DNA of 64,000 bases from Zhihengliuella flava (GTDB lineage Bacteria > Actinomycetota > Actinomycetes > Actinomycetales > Micrococcaceae): the NCBI RefSeq assembly GCF_015751895.1, contig NZ_JADOTZ010000001.1, positions 2,790,001 through 2,854,000 on the forward strand, read 5' to 3'. Below are positions 3,697 to 59,332 of the stretch, one piece after another (the stretch's first letter is position 1; each line of letters starts with the position of its first letter). A program made the position numbers and the translations under genes. The notes under the pieces were generated by a model. The model had not been told where the DNA came from. It did no database searches and was given only the letters and a program-made list of their open reading frames with translations.

Positions 3697-4443
3697 ATGA
3701 CGCCCACGTCCCGGGCACCAGAGACCGAGGAACGCACCCGAGATCGCGTGTTGCAGGCCGTCCTCAAGCAGGGGCCGGTGAGCGCCGCCGAGCTCGGGGA
3801 GTCCCTCGGCTTCACCCCTGCCGCGGTGCGCCGACACTTGGACACGCTGAGTAAGCAAGGGCTTGTCGAGGTCAAGCTGGTCGCCAATCAGGCGGGTGGC
3901 GCCGGTCGCCCTGCTCGTCGCTACGTCCTCAGCCAGCGCGGTCAAACAAAACTCGGCAACGACTACCTCGATATCGCCACCGAAGCCCTGACGGACCTAG
4001 CCCATGTGGCGGGCGAGGACGCGGTCCGGCAATTCGCCGCGCGCCGCTTCGCCGCCATGGAGAAGAAGTATCAGCCGATCGTCGACGCCGCCGGTGACGA
4101 CGTGGCGGCGCGGGCTGACGCTCTGGCTGGGGCGCTGGCTGACGACGGATTCGTCGGCTATACCCGCGATATCGGCGCGAACCTTCCCGAGGCGCTTCAG
4201 GGCATTCAGCTCTGCCAAGGGCATTGTCCCATTCAGGGATTAGCGGGCGAGTTTGATGCGTTCTGTGATGAGGAGACCAAAATTTTTGCGCGGCTGCTCG
4301 GCGTGGATGTGCGCCGATTGTCCACGCTCGCCAGTGGCGGCCACGTGTGCACCACTCACGTCCCCGTCGGGCGACATAAGACCCCGCAACGTGCGGAAAA
4401 GAGAACTCGAATCAAGATCAACAAGCAGGAGAGGCCGCGATGA
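3697..4443 (+). CDS. sufR: SufR-type iron-sulfur transcriptional repressor
   Basis: 248 aa. An N-terminal winged helix-turn-helix (about residues 10-75: [18 protein letters not shown] then [12 protein letters not shown]) is followed by a C-terminal region with the cysteine set CQGHC, FCDEE and HVCTT, the cluster ligands of SufR proteins. The family senses [4Fe-4S] status and represses the suf operon. The stop overlaps sufB start (ATGA, 4440-4443), so it is the first gene of the operon. Start choice is uncertain: ATG 3697 has no clear ribosome site, and GTG 3658 lies a few bases after a possible -10 and could be a leaderless start. Confidence 0.9.
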
Positions 4444-45539: not shown

Positions 45540-45624
45540 TTCTCTTGTCTGTGTTCATGCGCGGTCCTAAGGGATTGCCATATGGTTAAAGCTCCGCATG
45601 AACGTTTCTTAGGAGTTGGGGATT

Positions 45625-46527
45625 TTGGGGAATGCCGATGATTCGGTTCTCGATGACTGGTTCAAGGCAAACAGGATCGATCTATCGGACGTCCCGTCTT
45701 TCCTGCCGAACCCAGAGATGGGGAAGCTAGACCGCGTTGAAGTCTTCGTTGACGAGACGGGCGACCGAAACTTCAAGAAGAACCGCCAGTCGGACTGGTT
45801 CGCCATGACTGCCGTTATGGTTCCGGCTGAACACATGAACCATGTAAAGACCATCATTCGGGGTCTACGTGACTACCTGGGGAACGGTGGCAAGCCGGTT
45901 GGACATATTCATTGGGTCCAGCATTGCAAGCGTAAGAAGTATGACCGACGCGTCGTCGTTCGCGACCTAGCGACGGGATTCAGGCGTGTACGCGTCATCC
46001 ACGTGATCATCCACAAGCCCTCCATCGCTGCGTCCGCCCATATGCGCAATGACACACGCGGCGTTTACTACACCGCGACGAAGTACCTGCTGGAACGAAT
46101 CGGTAGGGCCGCTCTTCATTGGGATGGAGGCGCCCGTAGCGCGCGAGTCACTTTCGCGACGATCAAGGGAGTTGACCCCGAGGAGACGAAAGCCTATCTG
46201 AACCACTGTGCCAACGAGTCGCGGCTCTTGGCGTCAGATGACATCCAGCACGATAGGAACGCGCAATACTTCGATCACCTCAAGTGGCCGGCAGCGTGGC
46301 GACCGATGGGCACATATGAAGGACTGGAACTCGCTGACATCTACTCAGGCTTCCTCAGCGCCGCCCTCAGGGATGGGGACTCTACCTTCATGTGCCGGTA
46401 TTCGGATCGTGTCGCATGCGATGAAAAGGGGCGTCGATCCGGCTTTGGTGTCAAGGTCTTTCCTGAGCAGGGCTGGCAAGCCGTACACCATACGGATTGG
46501 TGGCACGAGTTCTCTTCAATGCGCTAA
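45625..46527 (+). CDS. DUF3800 family protein
   Basis: 300 aa. VEVFVDETGDRNF (about residue 38) is the DUF3800 N-terminal acidic motif, and GLELADIYSGFLSAAL near residue 235 is the C-terminal ELAD motif; the fold is believed to be RNase H-like. The family is common in prophages and near defence genes, but activity is unproven. AGGAG (45611-45615) supports TTG 45625 at 9-bp spacing; TTG 45616 is too close. The gene and its flanks have visibly lower GC than neighbours and a hairpin on either side, a moron-like layout. Confidence 0.85.
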   Translation: MGNADDSVLDDWFKANRIDLSDVPSFLPNPEMGKLDRVEVFVDETGDRNFKKNRQSDWFAMTAVMVPAEHMNHVKTIIRGLRDYLGNGGKPVGHIHWVQHCKRKKYDRRVVVRDLATGFRRVRVIHVIIHKPSIAASAHMRNDTRGVYYTATKYLLERIGRAALHWDGGARSARVTFATIKGVDPEETKAYLNHCANESRLLASDDIQHDRNAQYFDHLKWPAAWRPMGTYEGLELADIYSGFLSAALRDGDSTFMCRYSDRVACDEKGRRSGFGVKVFPEQGWQAVHHTDWWHEFSSMR

Positions 46528-47144: not shown

Positions 47145-47909
47145 TCAGGACTCCTTTTCAAGTTCAAGCTTCTCGATCCGCGTAAGGATCTGACGCTGCA
47201 GAGTGAGAATCTGCTCTAGCGCGCCAATGAAATTGGTCTGTCCGGCCCGGCCAGCAGTCGATACGAAATCGACCTGCTGGGACTGGATCGAATTCTGTAG
47301 TGAGTCGATGCCCTGCTTGAGCTCGGTGTACTGGGACACGGTCAGGTCCTCCTCTGGGTCTAGGTTTCCTACGGGTCGTAGCCCGTCGATGACAGACTGC
47401 GTCTGCGCGCGGAGTTGGTTGGGTGTGTATCCGTTGATATCGATCTTGCGAGGGCCGGCGTACTCGGAGTGCCCGCAGACCATGCCGGCGTCCGTGGAGC
47501 CGATGGCATCCAACAGTGCGGCGCAGAGGATCGGGTACGCCTCGCGCTGGGCGTCGGTCCAGTCCGCATTGTCGGCGGCTTCTGCCTCGATGCCGAGGAA
47601 TCTTGAGTTGCCGGAGTATCCGCGCCAGGCCCCCTTGCCGGCGTGGTTGGCGCGGCCTGCTGCGACGATGACGCATACGCCGCGTCGGTCCAAGTAGACG
47701 TTGCAGAGCGGTCCGGGGAGGCTTGGCCGGCCCTCGGTGACGATGCGCAGTGAGGGGCGCTTGTCGGTGCCGCGTGGGCCTGCCGTCCAGTGCCCGACGA
47801 CGCCCACGGGGTCGAAGGACGTACTGCCGCGGGTAGACCAGCCGGGAACGTATTCGACCGTGAGTCCCCACGATTTCAGGACGCGAAAGAGAGTGGTGAC
47901 GCGTGGCAT
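47145..47909 (-). CDS. endolysin: N-acetylmuramoyl-L-alanine amidase (Amidase_2)
   Basis: 254 aa. The catalytic domain (about 15-165) has zinc-binding VVGHWTAG, an ANHAGKG loop and CGHSEYAGPRKIDI, the amidase_2 pattern with His ligands and an Asp in the third place. After a linker (LDPEEDLTVSQY) the C-terminal 75 residues form a helical, probably oligomerising tail (TELKQGIDSL, ILTRIEKLELEKES). No known wall-binding repeat is seen. The ATG overlaps the stop of the preceding 38-aa gene (ATGA). Confidence 0.92.
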   Translation of the reverse strand: MPRVTTLFRVLKSWGLTVEYVPGWSTRGSTSFDPVGVVGHWTAGPRGTDKRPSLRIVTEGRPSLPGPLCNVYLDRRGVCVIVAAGRANHAGKGAWRGYSGNSRFLGIEAEAADNADWTDAQREAYPILCAALLDAIGSTDAGMVCGHSEYAGPRKIDINGYTPNQLRAQTQSVIDGLRPVGNLDPEEDLTVSQYTELKQGIDSLQNSIQSQQVDFVSTAGRAGQTNFIGALEQILTLQRQILTRIEKLELEKES

Positions 47910-53886: not shown

Positions 53887-54660
53887 TCAGATGTAGGTGT
53901 CGCGGACCAGCACCCGGTACTGGCCCACCCCGCCGTCAGTCGCCGGGATCACATTCGCAGCACGCGAGACACCCGGCATGACCTTCGCCAGATTCGTGTA
54001 CCCGGTCTGCCCGAAGACCACGGCCCCGTCCTTCCGGAGCAGGCCCGACCCGAAGTCCACCTCGAAAAGCTCACCAGCATTCACCGTCTCAAGAGACCGG
54101 AACGAGTCGGCGCCCGTGCCCCATGCGGTGAAGCCGGACGTCATGCTGCCCTTGACCTCGATCACCGGTGCCGCCGGATAATTCCCCTCATGCGAGACCT
54201 GGACCGACACCGGGCTAGTCCGCGACGCCGTCGTCCACGCTGTAGTGCGCAGCACCCCATACTTGCGCGGGTCAGGGGCCTTGAGGCTCAGCTCCCACTT
54301 CGCGTACGTATCGGTGTGGTCCTCCCAATCGAGGCCGCCATCACGGTCCGCCATCGCGGACTGAGTCGGCCCATGACCCGCCACCGTCAGCTCTGCCGGC
54401 CCCGAATGCAGCAGCCCAGACAGGAGCATGTTCGCCTCGTGCAGCCCCGCATGGGTTACCGCGTACACGCTCCCGATCAGGGTCACGTAGCGCGGTCCGT
54501 ACGTGACCAGCGCCGGGAAATCGCCGTCGCCACCGACACGGACTGTCGAGTCCGACCGTGGCGCGGGAGACTTGAACCAGCCGTCAGCATCCCGCACCAC
54601 GACCCGCGTCCCATCAGAGAGCGTCACCGGGAACTGAGTGGTGCCCAGAGTTATATCCAT
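53887..54660 (-). CDS. distal tail protein (Dit-like)
   Basis: 257 aa from ATG 54660 (MDITLGTTQFPVTLSDGTR). Located directly after the tape measure gene, with LHEANMLLSGLLHSGPAELTV and a C-terminal beta domain (GELFEVDFGSGLLRKDG), consistent with a distal tail protein joining tube and hub. The start overlaps the tape measure stop by one base. An upstream extension to 54912 is inside the tape measure gene and is rejected. Confidence 0.8.
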   Translation of the reverse strand: MDITLGTTQFPVTLSDGTRVVVRDADGWFKSPAPRSDSTVRVGGDGDFPALVTYGPRYVTLIGSVYAVTHAGLHEANMLLSGLLHSGPAELTVAGHGPTQSAMADRDGGLDWEDHTDTYAKWELSLKAPDPRKYGVLRTTAWTTASRTSPVSVQVSHEGNYPAAPVIEVKGSMTSGFTAWGTGADSFRSLETVNAGELFEVDFGSGLLRKDGAVVFGQTGYTNLAKVMPGVSRAANVIPATDGGVGQYRVLVRDTYI

Positions 54661-57600
54661 CAGCGCAGGCCTTCCAGCTTTTTCTCGAGTGTCGTCTCTA
54701 GGACACGGTTGACGTTCTCGTCCCGTACACCCTGAATCACGATTGCGCCCTGCTGGAAAGTCACCGAACGACCGGCCATCACTGGGGCAGCAGTGGTCGA
54801 ATCCATCAGTCGACCACCGTCTGCGAATCCGGGTAGCTTCGGGAAAGTCCCGTTGTTGATCATTGCTAGCTCGCGGTTGTACTTGTCCGACGAGGCCCGG
54901 TTGATCACCCATTCGCGGTCGTCCACCCAGGCTGTGGGGTGCCCGTCGTGGCCAATCCCGAGGATCTGGTCAGTACCCAGCCCGGTCTCGGGGAGCCTTC
55001 CGCCGTCTGAGTATCGGCGAAGAGTGCGGCCTCCCGTGGAGTGCCGAGCTTGGCCGTAGTTCAAGCGTTCGGCGGAACGAGTCCCAGTGCTGGTGTAGTT
55101 GGTGTGGATAGTCTGGGTGACCCTCGAGGTGCGGTCTCGAGCTACTGCGTTTAGCGCAGCCTCAGCCGCAGATGTGATCGCCTGCGCGTCGATCTTCGCG
55201 GTCCGCTTCTTGCCCGCGGTCGCGTCAATCTTTGCGCCGGTCTCATCCGTTCCGGTCTCCGATACCTGAATTCGGCCATCGGGCAGCTCGGTCACGATGT
55301 AGCCAAGATCCCGTAAGGCCTTGACGGTCACCGGCGAGTTGTCGGTGATGGTGATCTTCTTGTCAGGCGTCGATTGAATCCACGTATGCAGGTCACTGAT
55401 TTTCGAGATCTCACCATCAGCGTTTGACTCGTACTCCGTGAACACGTCCGCGGGAATGAGGCCCATCTGATCAGCCAAAGCGCCGGCGGCGTCCTCTTCC
55501 ATGCCTGCCGCGATAGCGGCATTGATGAAAGCGTCGCGACCCTTCTGTACCTCTGCGGCCATCTCGCCCGATGTCGCTCCCGCTTCGTACATCGCGGTCC
55601 GCACACTGTCAGTCGCCGACGCAATACCATCCAGCGCGGCCTGGTTAGCTGAGCCCTTTTCGGTATTGATGTCGAGAGTGGCGCCATTCTCCTTGATGGA
55701 CTCCGTAGCTGAGCGGATCGAGTCCGCGAGCTCACGGTGAGCCGCACGCTCTGTCAGAACAATCGCGCCGGTCTTGGTTAGTCCCTCAAAGTAGGCGTCG
55801 AGCTCATCGGCGGCATCACCCGCAGCATCACCGACCTCACCGATAGCGCCCTCGAGATCCTCGGACCCCTCAGCCGCAGTGGCCGAGTCGGCCTCGATGT
55901 GCCTCAATGCGTCCGCGTATTGAGGAAAGAGCTTGGAAGCGTCTTCGGCGCTTACACCCGACTCTTCCAGGCGTCCGGCCAGAGTCTCCATGGCCGATTT
56001 GGCTGCATCGATATTCCCCGAGCTGACCATCGTTGCCAGCTCAGCGTCAACTGCCTTGAACGCTTCTTCAGCTAGAGCAACGCTGCCTTTCACCCCGGTG
56101 ATGGCTGTAATGCCACCCTGCGCCCATCGCTCCATCTTGTCGATGGTGCCGTCGCCAAAGAGAGCCCGCACTGATGCATCGAACCCCGACACCGACTCTT
56201 CGGCATGCCCGATACCTTCGTAGCCTTGGAAAGCTGCTTCCAACGCCCCTTCGGCATTTGCGCCCTCCGTAGCGATGCGCGCCAACGCGTCAGCGATGTG
56301 CCCTGTGCCCTCGGGGATGTCTTTGGTGTACTGGGACTCAGCTAATTTGGCCAAGCCCGTCGCCACGCCTCCGATTACGGTGACCGCCCCTCCCGCAGCA
56401 GCAATGCGGCGAAGCGCGCGGCCAGATCGTGACGCAGCTGGCGCAAACGTGTCCAGTGCGTCCTTGGCGTTCTTTACCTTCGGGGCAAGATTCAAAAAGA
56501 GCCCCAGTGCGCCAGCGCTCACGCCGGCGATTCCACCAAGCGCGGTGACACCGATTTGGACAGGCTCGGGCAGCTCACTAAACCAGCGGACTAGATCCGC
56601 CGCGCCATCGGCCAGCTCTGCAACGACCGGGAGGATGGCTCCGCCTGCGGTAATCGCTGCGTCTTTGATGTTGTTCCACGCGATGCGGATCCGGGACTCT
56701 GTGGTCTCGTAACGCTTCTGCGCTTCCTCCACGAGAGCAGTGTTCTTTTCCCACGCGTCCGCGCCCATTTCGAGGGAGCGGGTAAGCAGGTCGCCCGAGT
56801 TAGCGAGGGCCAGCATGACCTGCGTTTCTTCGGTCCCGCGGATGCCCATGTCCTTGAGCGTCGCCGTGACATTCCCGCCGGCCTCGTTGACGTTGTTGAT
56901 ACCGCCCGCGACGAGCTGCAGAGCCTCCATCGGGGAGGTGCGGAACTTCTCTGCGAACTCGTCCGCAGAGAGTCCTGCCGTCTGGGCGAACGTCGAAAGG
57001 GATTCGCCACCCTCGTCCACGGCCGTGCGCATTTTCAGCAGGACGCGAGTCGCGACACCGCCACCTAGCTCGGCGCGGACACCCATCGACGCCAGCGTGT
57101 TTGAGAGAGCCAGGACGTCGGACTCGGTGGCCCCAATTGTCGCGCCAGCACCGGCAATCCTCTGAGCCATATTGAGAATGTCTGCCTCAGTGGATGCACC
57201 GTTGTTGCCAAGCTCAACAAGCGTGGCACCGAACCGCTCAACACCCTTTGAGCCCTCACGCTCCATCGTGCCCATCACGTTGCTGATCTGCGCGATGGAC
57301 GTGGCCGCCTCCTCGGCGGTGAGGTTGGTCGACTCGCCAAGGTTGATCATCGTTTCGGTGAACCCGACAACATTCTCGCGGGCCACTCCGAGCTGGCCGG
57401 CAGCCTCAGCGACGGCGGCAATCTCTGTGTGCGTGGATGGCAGCGTTCTGGCGAGTTCGCGCAACCCATCTTCGATTTCCGCCATCTGCCCGGGCGTGCC
57501 ATCCACAGTTTTCATGACGCCAGCCCAGGCGGACTCCCAGTCCATGGCTGCTTTGGTAGACAGGCCCAGCCCTGCGACTGACGCGGTGCCGATGGCCAGC

Positions 57601-57767
57601 AGTGGGGTCTCGAGGTCGCGAAGGGCCTGGACTCGCTTGGCGGTGGTGTCGCCGGAGTTCTTAGCCGCTTTCTCGAGTTCCTCGGTGGACTTGGCTGCCG
57701 CCGACATTGCGGACTTGTACCGGTCCACCTGCGCTTCGAGGATGACTTTTACGCGACGCTCAGCCAA
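54660..57767 (-). CDS. tail tape measure protein (TP901 family)
   Basis: 1035 aa, the longest helical protein in the block. The conserved TP901 core is at about 75-260 (GLSTKAAMDWESAWAGVMK, LTAEEAATSIAQISNVM, GATIGATESDVLALSN). Hydrophobic stretches at about 370-470 may insert in the host membrane. By the usual ratio a tail of roughly 150 nm is expected (inference). TTG 57767 with TTGGAGG eight bases upstream is the start. The usual position right after the chaperone genes is interrupted by two plus-strand genes. Confidence 0.93.
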   Translation of the reverse strand: MAERRVKVILEAQVDRYKSAMSAAAKSTEELEKAAKNSGDTTAKRVQALRDLETPLLAIGTASVAGLGLSTKAAMDWESAWAGVMKTVDGTPGQMAEIEDGLRELARTLPSTHTEIAAVAEAAGQLGVARENVVGFTETMINLGESTNLTAEEAATSIAQISNVMGTMEREGSKGVERFGATLVELGNNGASTEADILNMAQRIAGAGATIGATESDVLALSNTLASMGVRAELGGGVATRVLLKMRTAVDEGGESLSTFAQTAGLSADEFAEKFRTSPMEALQLVAGGINNVNEAGGNVTATLKDMGIRGTEETQVMLALANSGDLLTRSLEMGADAWEKNTALVEEAQKRYETTESRIRIAWNNIKDAAITAGGAILPVVAELADGAADLVRWFSELPEPVQIGVTALGGIAGVSAGALGLFLNLAPKVKNAKDALDTFAPAASRSGRALRRIAAAGGAVTVIGGVATGLAKLAESQYTKDIPEGTGHIADALARIATEGANAEGALEAAFQGYEGIGHAEESVSGFDASVRALFGDGTIDKMERWAQGGITAITGVKGSVALAEEAFKAVDAELATMVSSGNIDAAKSAMETLAGRLEESGVSAEDASKLFPQYADALRHIEADSATAAEGSEDLEGAIGEVGDAAGDAADELDAYFEGLTKTGAIVLTERAAHRELADSIRSATESIKENGATLDINTEKGSANQAALDGIASATDSVRTAMYEAGATSGEMAAEVQKGRDAFINAAIAAGMEEDAAGALADQMGLIPADVFTEYESNADGEISKISDLHTWIQSTPDKKITITDNSPVTVKALRDLGYIVTELPDGRIQVSETGTDETGAKIDATAGKKRTAKIDAQAITSAAEAALNAVARDRTSRVTQTIHTNYTSTGTRSAERLNYGQARHSTGGRTLRRYSDGGRLPETGLGTDQILGIGHDGHPTAWVDDREWVINRASSDKYNRELAMINNGTFPKLPGFADGGRLMDSTTAAPVMAGRSVTFQQGAIVIQGVRDENVNRVLETTLEKKLEGLR

Positions 57768-57787
57768 GGTCAGGCCTCCAATATGCT

Positions 57788-57834
57788 GTGAACTTGTGGA
57801 AGAATCCGGGCATGACTACCGGGGAAACTCAGAA
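57788..57834 (+). repeat. 47-bp direct repeat, copy 1
   Basis: Exact copy of 58064-58110. It contains GGAAGA, an 8-base gap and ATG (57812) plus the first seven codons (MTTGETQ) of the small membrane-protein gene. Also lies 21 bp upstream of the tape measure start on the other strand. Confidence 0.95.
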
Positions 57835-58018
57835 GAAAAGGCCAGGCAGCGCACTCATTGGTGCGGGCATCGTTTTTGGCTTTGTGGGGCTGTTGATCGC
57901 GATTTACGCCACCGTTCAAAACGGTGCGTTTCCCGTGCCGTGGATACTCATAGTTGGGCTTCTTCTGGCTGGCATTGGCTTTGCGGTGCGCTTGTTAGCT
58001 GCGGTCGAACGGCGATAG
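57812..58018 (+). CDS. small two-helix membrane protein A (antisense within late operon)
   Basis: 68 aa from ATG 57812 (GTG 57788 would give 76 aa). MTTGETQKKRPG is followed by two hydrophobic helices (LIGAGIVFGFVGLLIAIYATV and PWILIVGLLLAGIGFAV) and ends LLAAVERR. It is transcribed opposite to all surrounding structural genes. The paralogue 58088-58318 follows in tandem. TATGCT at 57782-57787 might be a -10 of its own promoter. Candidate superinfection-exclusion or immunity protein by size, topology and position; not proven. Confidence 0.75.
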   Translation: MTTGETQKKRPGSALIGAGIVFGFVGLLIAIYATVQNGAFPVPWILIVGLLLAGIGFAVRLLAAVERR

Positions 58019-58063
58019 CAACCTCGATGCATGTCATGGCGGCAAAGTGGCATCCACATCGCC

Positions 58064-58110
58064 GTGAACTTGTGGAAGAATCCGGGCATGACTACCGGGG
58101 AAACTCAGAA
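58064..58110 (+). repeat. 47-bp direct repeat, copy 2
   Basis: Identical to 57788-57834, 276 bp apart. Covers ribosome site, ATG 58088 and first seven codons of the second membrane-protein gene. Sequence identity stops sharply after this segment while the rest of the genes is only distantly similar. Confidence 0.95.
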
Positions 58111-58318
58111 CGAAATGGCCGTGCGCCCAGGGCGCAAAATGATGATCTGGGGCTTCACGGCGATGCTCGTCGGAATTATCGGATGGATCACGGTCCTGTC
58201 CGGAATGGGCCGCGCAGGATGGTTCATGCTCCTCGTCCTGCTGCTCACGGCAGGCGGATTGATCGTGGGCGTTATCGGGCTCTTCCGCCGTCTATTCGCT
58301 GCTCTTGAGCGTCGGTAG
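58088..58318 (+). CDS. small two-helix membrane protein B (tandem paralogue)
   Basis: 76 aa from ATG 58088. MTTGETQNEMAVRPG then helices GFTAMLVGIIGWITVL and MLLVLLLTAGGLIVGVIGLF and end LFAALERR, matching protein A in layout, first seven residues and C-terminal (L-F/L-A-A-V/L-E-R-R). The 3-prime end (58292-58318) overlaps the end of the tail-chaperone frameshift extension on the opposite strand. Upstream frame to 58031 is possible but lacks a better start. Confidence 0.75.
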   Translation: MTTGETQNEMAVRPGRKMMIWGFTAMLVGIIGWITVLSGMGRAGWFMLLVLLLTAGGLIVGVIGLFRRLFAALERR

Positions 58319-59229
58319 CGGCTTTGATGCTGGCCTGTCGTAGGTCGTGTAGACCTTTTGGCCAGGCACTGGCTCTGACCCCGGCGATGGCTTAGCGGCA
58401 CGCTGACTAGCAGCACACGCATGGCACTGCGTTGTTTGTCCCGTGTACCAGCCGTCGTTGTCCTCGTGATGCGCCAGAATGACCGGGTTCCCGCACGCAC
58501 AGAGCCCCGCCTTATAGCGGGTGTGCGCCAGCGTCAGTAGTAGATCCTTCGACCCCCAGAAACCATCGAGGCCCCCAAGCCATTCGCTCGGGGGCCTCTT
58601 GAAGGCTTCTGCGGTTTCGAGGACGTTGATTAGGCCTCGGTACCGTGACTGTTGGTGCCAGAGGCAGTGAGCAAAAAATCCGCGTCCACCTCAGGGATCG
58701 CGTTTTGTGCGATGCGCTGCGCCTTGGTGAGTTCGAGCAGTTGAACCTCACCTACTTTTTCCTTGAGCTTCTTCACTTGGGCAACCGTCCAGCGGACCGG
58801 TCGGCGGTCACCATCACCCTTCTTCACGCCCACGATTGACTCGGACAGGATCAGCCACCCGAACTCGAGGCCATCCTGCTCCTTGGGGATCTCGCCAGAT
58901 TCGACTCGCGCGTTGTGCGCGTCGAGGAGGCTCTTACGGTGTTCGCCGGGGATCGCGGACACGTACACCGTGAGCCGGGAGTTCCCGAACGTGTTGAGGA
59001 GGTCGGTGTACCGGGCCTCGAGTTTGCTGCGCTCCGACTTCTCGCCGGCGGTCTGCTCGCCAGTGTTGCCCGCGTCCTGCAGCTCTTCGATGCGGCGCTT
59101 GAGCTCGGATAGCTCGGAGATCACGTCGGCGCGCTTGTAGACGTCCACGGATTCCTCGGGGAGAGCGGCGTCGATGAGCCAGTCGTCGAGGTCGAAAGTT
59201 TCGGGGTCGAGGTTCTGATTCTCAGTCAT
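58292..59229 (-). CDS. tail assembly chaperone, long form by programmed -1 frameshift (GT type)
   Basis: The -1 frame is open from the slippery site to a stop at 58292-58294, giving about 312 aa: 186 codons of the short form, then 126 codons beginning AHCLWHQQSRYRGLINVLE. The extension contains EWLGGLDGFWGSKD and a zinc-like CACGNPVILAHHEDNDGW with later CHAC, as in the T part of actinophage G-T proteins. It helps load tail tube protein onto the tape measure. No start codon or ribosome site marks the extension as an independent gene. Confidence 0.85.
58630..59229 (-). CDS. tail assembly chaperone, short form (G type)
   Basis: 199 aa from ATG 59229 (MTENQNLDPETFDLDDW). Acidic and helical, with ELKRRIEELQDAG and RWTVAQVKKLKEKV; ends DADFLLTASGTNSHGTEA. 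It lies between major tail protein and tape measure genes, the canonical chaperone site. Most ribosomes should produce this form, a minority shifting at 58672-58678. Confidence 0.88.
   Translation of the reverse strand: MTENQNLDPETFDLDDWLIDAALPEESVDVYKRADVISELSELKRRIEELQDAGNTGEQTAGEKSERSKLEARYTDLLNTFGNSRLTVYVSAIPGEHRKSLLDAHNARVESGEIPKEQDGLEFGWLILSESIVGVKKGDGDRRPVRWTVAQVKKLKEKVGEVQLLELTKAQRIAQNAIPEVDADFLLTASGTNSHGTEA
58672..58678 (-). other. -1 ribosomal frameshift slippery heptamer TTTTTTG
   Basis: On the minus strand the bases read GAT TTT TTG in frame, that is T-TTT-TTG in X-XXY-YYZ form. Slippage by one base leads into the open -1 frame that runs 126 codons. It lies 39 bp before the stop of the short form, as in many siphovirus chaperone pairs. 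Confidence 0.88.
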
Positions 59230-59332
59230 GATGTCAGGCTCCAAATCTGTGCGTGTCAGGCTCAAGGGGTGGGGTGGTGCCGTGCGGGCGCGGAGCCTGA
59301 CCAACGCGCCCGCACGGGGTACTGGGGGAGGT

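Follow-up and report, generated by a model that had tools for sequence, protein, structure and literature searches.

Antisense genes for small membrane proteins recur between the tail-chaperone and tape measure genes of actinobacterial phages and suggest protection of the host cell against rival viruses

A prophage of Zhihengliuella flava carries two tandem genes, here called A and B, in antisense orientation between its tape measure and tail-chaperone genes. Computation shows that they are coding genes, that the antisense slot they occupy recurs in other phages, that slot genes share a conserved promoter-like element, and that they are exchanged between phages. Many related phages keep such a gene at this position, usually with an apparent switch of its own, which suggests a role in shielding the bacterium from competing viruses. 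A and B may be a pair of antisense morons that a temperate siphophage carries with promoters of their own; by analogy with described systems, superinfection exclusion at DNA entry is their most likely function, a reading in which our confidence and our doubt are about equal. The window, meaning the whole stretch of 64,000 nucleotides analysed, covers positions 2790001-2854000 of a 2.9-Mb single-contig genome.

Open reading frames and PHROG matches place A and B on the plus strand of an integrase-bearing prophage. The tape measure gene (54660..57767, minus strand; PHROG 13339, E 8e-177) diverges from A, and a TTGGAGG site at 57775-57781 precedes its start. Gene A (57812..58018, plus strand; ATG 57812, stop 58016-58018) encodes a two-helix membrane protein of 68 aa, and gene B (58088..58318, plus strand; ATG 58088, stop 58316-58318) a diverged two-helix paralogue of 76 aa, two hydrophobic stretches being scored in each. 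Beyond B lie the chaperone frameshift extension (58295..58633, minus strand), whose 3' end and that of B overlap in antisense, and the unshifted tail assembly chaperone (58630..59304, minus strand; PHROG 15960, E 1e-9 for 58630-59250). Frames and PHROG matches thus confirm what a sequence-only reading had described, two tandem plus-strand genes for two-helix proteins of 68 and 76 aa between chaperone and tape measure. Its view of the pair as diverged paralogues with a common ending holds as well: both proteins end in ERR and are 44% identical over 63 aligned codons. Longer starts are also open, GTG 57788 giving an A of 76 aa and ATG 58031 a B of 95 aa; ATG 57812 and ATG 58088 are preferred because their spacing to a -10-like element is conserved. 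A and B are real antisense genes, more than chance frames, because homologues occupy the same antisense slot of other phages. Within the chaperone frameshift extension, a 13-bp stem-loop (58568-58598, minus strand) lies about 75 nt past a run of six T.

Direct searches with A or B were nearly empty, and a route through family profiles and chaperone homology was needed. With A, tblastn gave one weak phage match (E 0.2), which belongs to Arthrobacter phage Kukla and occupies the equivalent antisense position; B as direct query gave no phage match, and viral contigs searched with A or B yielded no confirmed relative. Arthrobacter phage EvePickles also has an antisense gene in the slot. Within the same bacterial family, 35 of 395 genomes had a profile match at E <= 0.001, and among the loci returned a slot gene was verified beside a tape measure gene in 11 of the 395 (G000, G002, G004, G055, G075, G077, G115, G249, G340, G401 and G461). 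The profile matched 25 of 396 genomes of the same order, where the loci returned held no tape measure, own genome aside, and 14 of 394 of the same class. Two class-level loci were opened (L144 and L145), and their matches proved on inspection to be host genes beside what is presumably a cold-shock gene; the match in G001 (L018/L057) was likewise set aside as a host gene. Slot counts also leave out G102, G199, G468, G362 and G454, whose homologues have no tape measure in the 3-kb locus. The homologues outside the slot at L156 8250-8543 (minus strand, G454) and L155 7876-8118 (plus strand, G199) lie in regions that each hold a tail-appendage-like gene, the two being similar by eye.

The slot was also surveyed without using the small gene itself, by fetching loci through homology to the chaperone extension (n=50: 23 + 3 + 14 + 3, plus 7 distinct phages from 10 records). 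An antisense slot gene was present in 30 of the 50 loci, 25 of them two-helix and 5 lipoprotein-like, an occupancy biased by chaperone profiles that were built from loci already with the gene. The profile reached 22 of the 25 two-helix loci, the others being L117, L131 and L132. One locus (L108) has a homologue on the sense strand, three (L123, L124 and L140) are unassignable, and in 16 the junction is closed, with a gap of at most 91 nt or an overlap, the tape measure being named by length only in L122, L127 and L133; L109, L131 and L108 were assigned by visual inspection of the translations. Removal of duplicates (L098 is TripleJ; L110 and L112 share one protein) leaves 28 antisense, 1 sense and 16 closed of 45. 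The sequence-only reading had asked whether the antisense position recurs, which it does, and had named as contrary evidence related phages that keep the segment as non-coding DNA. None was seen: 16 of the 47 assigned junctions are without a slot gene, all of them closed, and no assigned junction combines a long gap with the lack of a slot gene.

Four of the five slot lipoproteins carry DUF732 (L134-L137), and the fifth (L119) is without a Pfam match. The cargo of the slot is, by predicted type, an alternation of two-helix proteins and lipoproteins, both putative envelope proteins. Slot genes are present in some and absent from other phages that are otherwise syntenic, which is the mark of a moron. 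The moron character proposed earlier is supported at the level of sequence, by a promoter-like element, by presence and absence between related phages and by temperate carriers. In the closed slot of L130, at about 4265-4360, we observed a palindrome, ACCCCCGATAAGATCGGGGGT (18 of 21 positions).

The slot genes evolve as proteins under purifying selection, as computation shows: dN/dS ranged from 0.03 to 0.68 across 15 slot-gene pairs, the highest value belonging to the pair L113/L114. The lowest, 0.03, is a rough figure (dS is saturated) for A against its homologue in the same antisense slot of another Zhihengliuella prophage; the two proteins are 82% identical, and the genes differ at 10, 9 and 40 sites in codon positions 1, 2 and 3. 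All 33 two-helix-type slot proteins that were tested scored two helices. In these 33 the net charge is -1 to +4 at the amino end, -1 to +1 in the loop, and +1 to +3 at the carboxy end, except in L131 (-1) and L132 (-2). The orientation of membrane proteins follows the positive-inside rule, and because of this charge pattern both ends of the protein are likely cytoplasmic. Known families offered little. Matches of A and B in Pfam and PHROG were only at E >= 0.01, under the Pfam cut-offs; Phage_holin_3_6 (actinobacterial Holin-X) gave A 14.1 bits against a gathering cut-off of 28.4 (E 0.05), with no listed hit for B. No defence model of PADLOC-DB 2.0.0 was matched (best E 0.58 for A and 0.033 for B). 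B matches the family profile A2 at E 6e-24, but is itself part of the A2 build.

Of 35 slot genes, 33 carry a -10-like element that ends 6-7 nt upstream of the ATG, under a motif that was defined after seeing the set, whose phages are related. The motif is TANNNT, or TGn then NNNN[AC]T, with a spacer of 6-7 nt, and the 35 genes are those of 38 distinct slot genes that remain once B, with its copied leader, and the downstream genes b and c of G401 are left out. In 2000 mononucleotide shuffles the mean count was 1.3 and the largest 6, and ten other spacer pairs gave 0 to 3 genes. The motif precedes none of 37 late gene starts in four named phages; across the loci examined it precedes 93 of 4428 ATGs. 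L110 and L117 lack it. Of three genes checked later, L108 and the fourth antisense gene of G401 have the element; Hestia gp18 has a GGGGG run ahead of its ATG in its place. With such a spacing, transcription would start at the ATG itself, and such leaderless transcripts are common in actinobacteria.

Ahead of A and B the predicted extended -10 (TGG AAGAAT) lies 6 nt before each ATG, at 57797..57805 and 58073..58081 on the plus strand, in identical copies. Their hexamer, AAGAAT, is without the first T, and the prediction rests on the TGn extension; a general sigma-70 scan gave no site before A or B. Downstream of B on the plus strand there is one weak terminator candidate of 5 pairs (58417-58432) and no clear terminator. 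At L160 3407-3835 (minus strand) the element GTTGTGGTTTGATGTGGGGATG precedes a different gene, one-helix or lipoprotein-like, so the element would serve more than one type of gene. In L131 and L132 a weaker palindrome (16 of 21) coincides in part with the -10 of the slot gene, and for that reason a repressor may control these two genes.

The leaders of A and B share an identical stretch that the sequence-only reading had overlooked. This block of 47 identical nucleotides on the plus strand (57788..57834 in A, 58064..58110 in B) takes in the -10 region together with the start and the first few codons, and no third copy was found in the window with up to 3 mismatches allowed in a 23-nt core. As this block is identical while the proteins have strongly diverged, the leader of one copy was probably copied or exchanged recently. 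Tandem arrangement is not confined to A and B: the slot of the G401 prophage (L158 9008-10093, minus strand) holds three back-to-back antisense two-helix genes and a possible fourth. The fourth has its own TATGCT -10 and a weak match to profile A7 (E 0.0018, single sequence). As a two-helix protein it did not qualify, with only one stretch passing and a best amino-terminal window of 1.23 against a threshold of 1.6, and it is counted as possible only.

Besides terminase, capsid and amidase genes, the host prophage encodes a repressor-like protein (PHROG 12831, E 3e-8) and a tyrosine integrase (PF00589, E 1e-16), whose gene is found some 27 kb rightward of the slot. All five named carriers (Kukla, TripleJ, Faja, Hestia and EvePickles) have an integrase or a tyrosine recombinase in their annotation. 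Among the three named closed-slot phages, BIM BV-113 has an integrase, and LuckyBarnes and Montesquieu have none annotated beyond the first ~8.7 kb. Across the 25 two-helix loci, small-protein identity and tape-measure identity are weakly correlated (r 0.19, Mantel p 0.062); hence the sequences give no indication that the tape measure is the target. The homologue from the other Zhihengliuella prophage illustrates this, with tape measures only 29% identical over the first 400 aa. The slot gene appears to have been exchanged between phages as a cassette, and this independence of the tape measure argues against a role in the virion.

The sequence-only reading knew of no described system with such a layout, a statement that does not stand. 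In phage HK97, gp15, annotated as a moron product, is a small membrane protein whose gene, like A and B, lies between a frameshifted tail gene and the tape measure gene. It is reported as a superinfection-exclusion protein that blocks DNA injection (PMC10883804), and its family is characterized by superinfection exclusion with escape through tail tube or tape measure genes. The differences are several: gp15 is encoded on the late-gene strand and followed by a putative terminator, whereas A and B are antisense with no strong terminator after B, and gp15 has 62 aa and one hydrophobic helix where A and B have two. No homology was detected between gp15 and the family profiles A2 and A7 (E 0.52 and 1), and gp15 matches PHROG 5031, which A and B do not at E <= 1. 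A and B may nevertheless work like gp15, though by sequence they stand outside its family. The same antisense slot is occupied in the Arthrobacter phages TripleJ (gp17), Faja (gp18), Hestia (gp18), Kukla (gp16) and EvePickles (gp18), where the genes are single-copy, in contrast to the two copies of A/B, and have no function assigned. TripleJ gp17 is deposited as 'membrane protein' and the others as hypothetical; in Kukla and EvePickles the start as annotated gives a shorter frame than the conserved ATG would.

Other systems resemble A and B in part. Ltp of Streptococcus phage TP-J34 is reported to exclude phages through the tape measure (PMC11480721, PMC10883804). Ltp and the Ltp-like gp41 of Cutibacterium phage Aquarius are, as A and B would be, phage-encoded envelope proteins; Ltp is a lipoprotein, unlike A and B, and the slot lipoproteins with DUF732 are likened to it by type only. 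In cluster O mycobacteriophages, the leftward gene 53 of Corndog lies inside the structural operon with a predicted leaderless SigA promoter, according to PMC4351075; it is given there as a putative DNA-binding protein and the insert as a nuclease gene, as opposed to the membrane proteins A and B. SNIPE, a membrane nuclease reported to be found with the tape measure during injection (PMC13190303), indicates that the step of DNA injection is a target for defence. Among the literature matches listed, with few subscription journals, no title or abstract opening mentions an antisense membrane gene in this slot, which is weak evidence of novelty.

A course of events can be proposed from these comparisons. 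A leaderless promoter just behind the ribosome site of the tape measure gene would drive A, and its copy would drive B, as the conserved sequence implies. Lying outside the late operon, these promoters would be on in the lysogen. The products, judged by charge and hydrophobicity, would be small hairpins in the membrane, their two termini cytoplasmic and a short loop outside. If gp15 and Ltp are a guide, they would most likely stop the DNA of superinfecting siphophages from entering at the cytoplasmic membrane, the site of action of the incoming tape measure. On induction, late transcription running antisense over A and B would shut them off, and the two diverged copies could widen the range of excluded phages. 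We favour exclusion because place, size and envelope location match HK97 gp15, because two-helix genes alternate with lipoproteins, the Ltp type, and because tandem copies have diversified. Counted against it are the lack of a match to any family or defence model and of a sigma-70 site before A or B; the post hoc nature of the -10 motif in related phages and its absence from L110, L117 and Hestia gp18; the lack of a clear terminator after B; the weak tape-measure correlation; the closed slot of BIM BV-113 despite its integrase; and the dN/dS of L113/L114.

The genetics fit equally a rather doubtful alternative, that A and B are membrane morons expressed in the lysogen that serve host or prophage otherwise, in envelope stress, ion or nutrient balance, or adhesion. 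Such genes would also show a promoter-like element, antisense placement and temperate carriers, and neither the failure of the small protein to track the tape measure nor the homologues outside the slot in G199, G454 and G468 would be surprising. What this account explains less well is that two unrelated types of envelope protein share a slot beside the tape measure gene, that HK97 keeps an exclusion gene in the same slot, and that tandem copies have diverged (A/B, and three, perhaps four, in G401), which fits specificity better than housekeeping. The antisense placement itself, by which the gene reads into that of the chaperone in 30 of 50 loci, could, with no strong plus-strand terminator after B, mean that antisense RNA or transcription interference silences the chaperone and tape measure genes in the lysogen, the peptide being secondary. 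This is improbable given the dN/dS values of 0.03-0.68 in all 15 pairs, the concentration of differences in A at third codon positions, the two helices of all 33 two-helix-type proteins, and L108, which keeps the gene in sense orientation.

Two further accounts place the proteins in the lytic cycle or the virion. Size, two helices and the weak Phage_holin_3_6 match of A (E 0.05) are compatible with holin-like or lysis-regulating small membrane proteins, a very unlikely role for genes that score under the Pfam cut-off (14.1 of 28.4 bits for A), run antisense to the late operon about 10 kb from the amidase gene (47148-47909), and are absent from 16 of 47 assigned junctions. Their constant position could instead mean that the phage itself needs them to assemble its tail or eject its DNA, and retains them next to the tape measure gene. 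Against this highly improbable role stand the same 16 junctions without the gene, the contrast between the 82% identity of A to its homologue and the 29% identity of the tape measures of the two phages (first 400 aa), and a strand opposite to that of the flanking tail genes.

Should superinfection exclusion be correct, the principle seen in HK97 gp15, an exclusion gene beside the tape measure, would extend to a set of actinobacterial phages, to unrelated proteins and to the opposite orientation. A positional rule would follow for exclusion genes missed by sequence searches, namely to look between tail chaperone and tape measure on the strand opposite to theirs. We tentatively extend this to the view that the chaperone/tape-measure junction of temperate actinobacterial siphophages could be a dedicated exclusion slot: interchangeable envelope proteins of the two-helix or lipoprotein type, single or in small arrays, would have their own, mostly leaderless promoters and lie antisense so that the late transcript ends exclusion on induction. 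Their antisense position suggests that lysogenic protection could be exchanged for lytic growth by a simple switch, an idea testable in the named Arthrobacter phages.

A second candidate envelope moron was observed, without a Pfam match at E <= 0.01 and with weak PHROG matches at its amino end to spanin and Cor exclusion families (E about 0.0015). Near the left end of the prophage, a DUF3800 protein is encoded on the plus strand (45616-46527; PF12686, E 1e-9).
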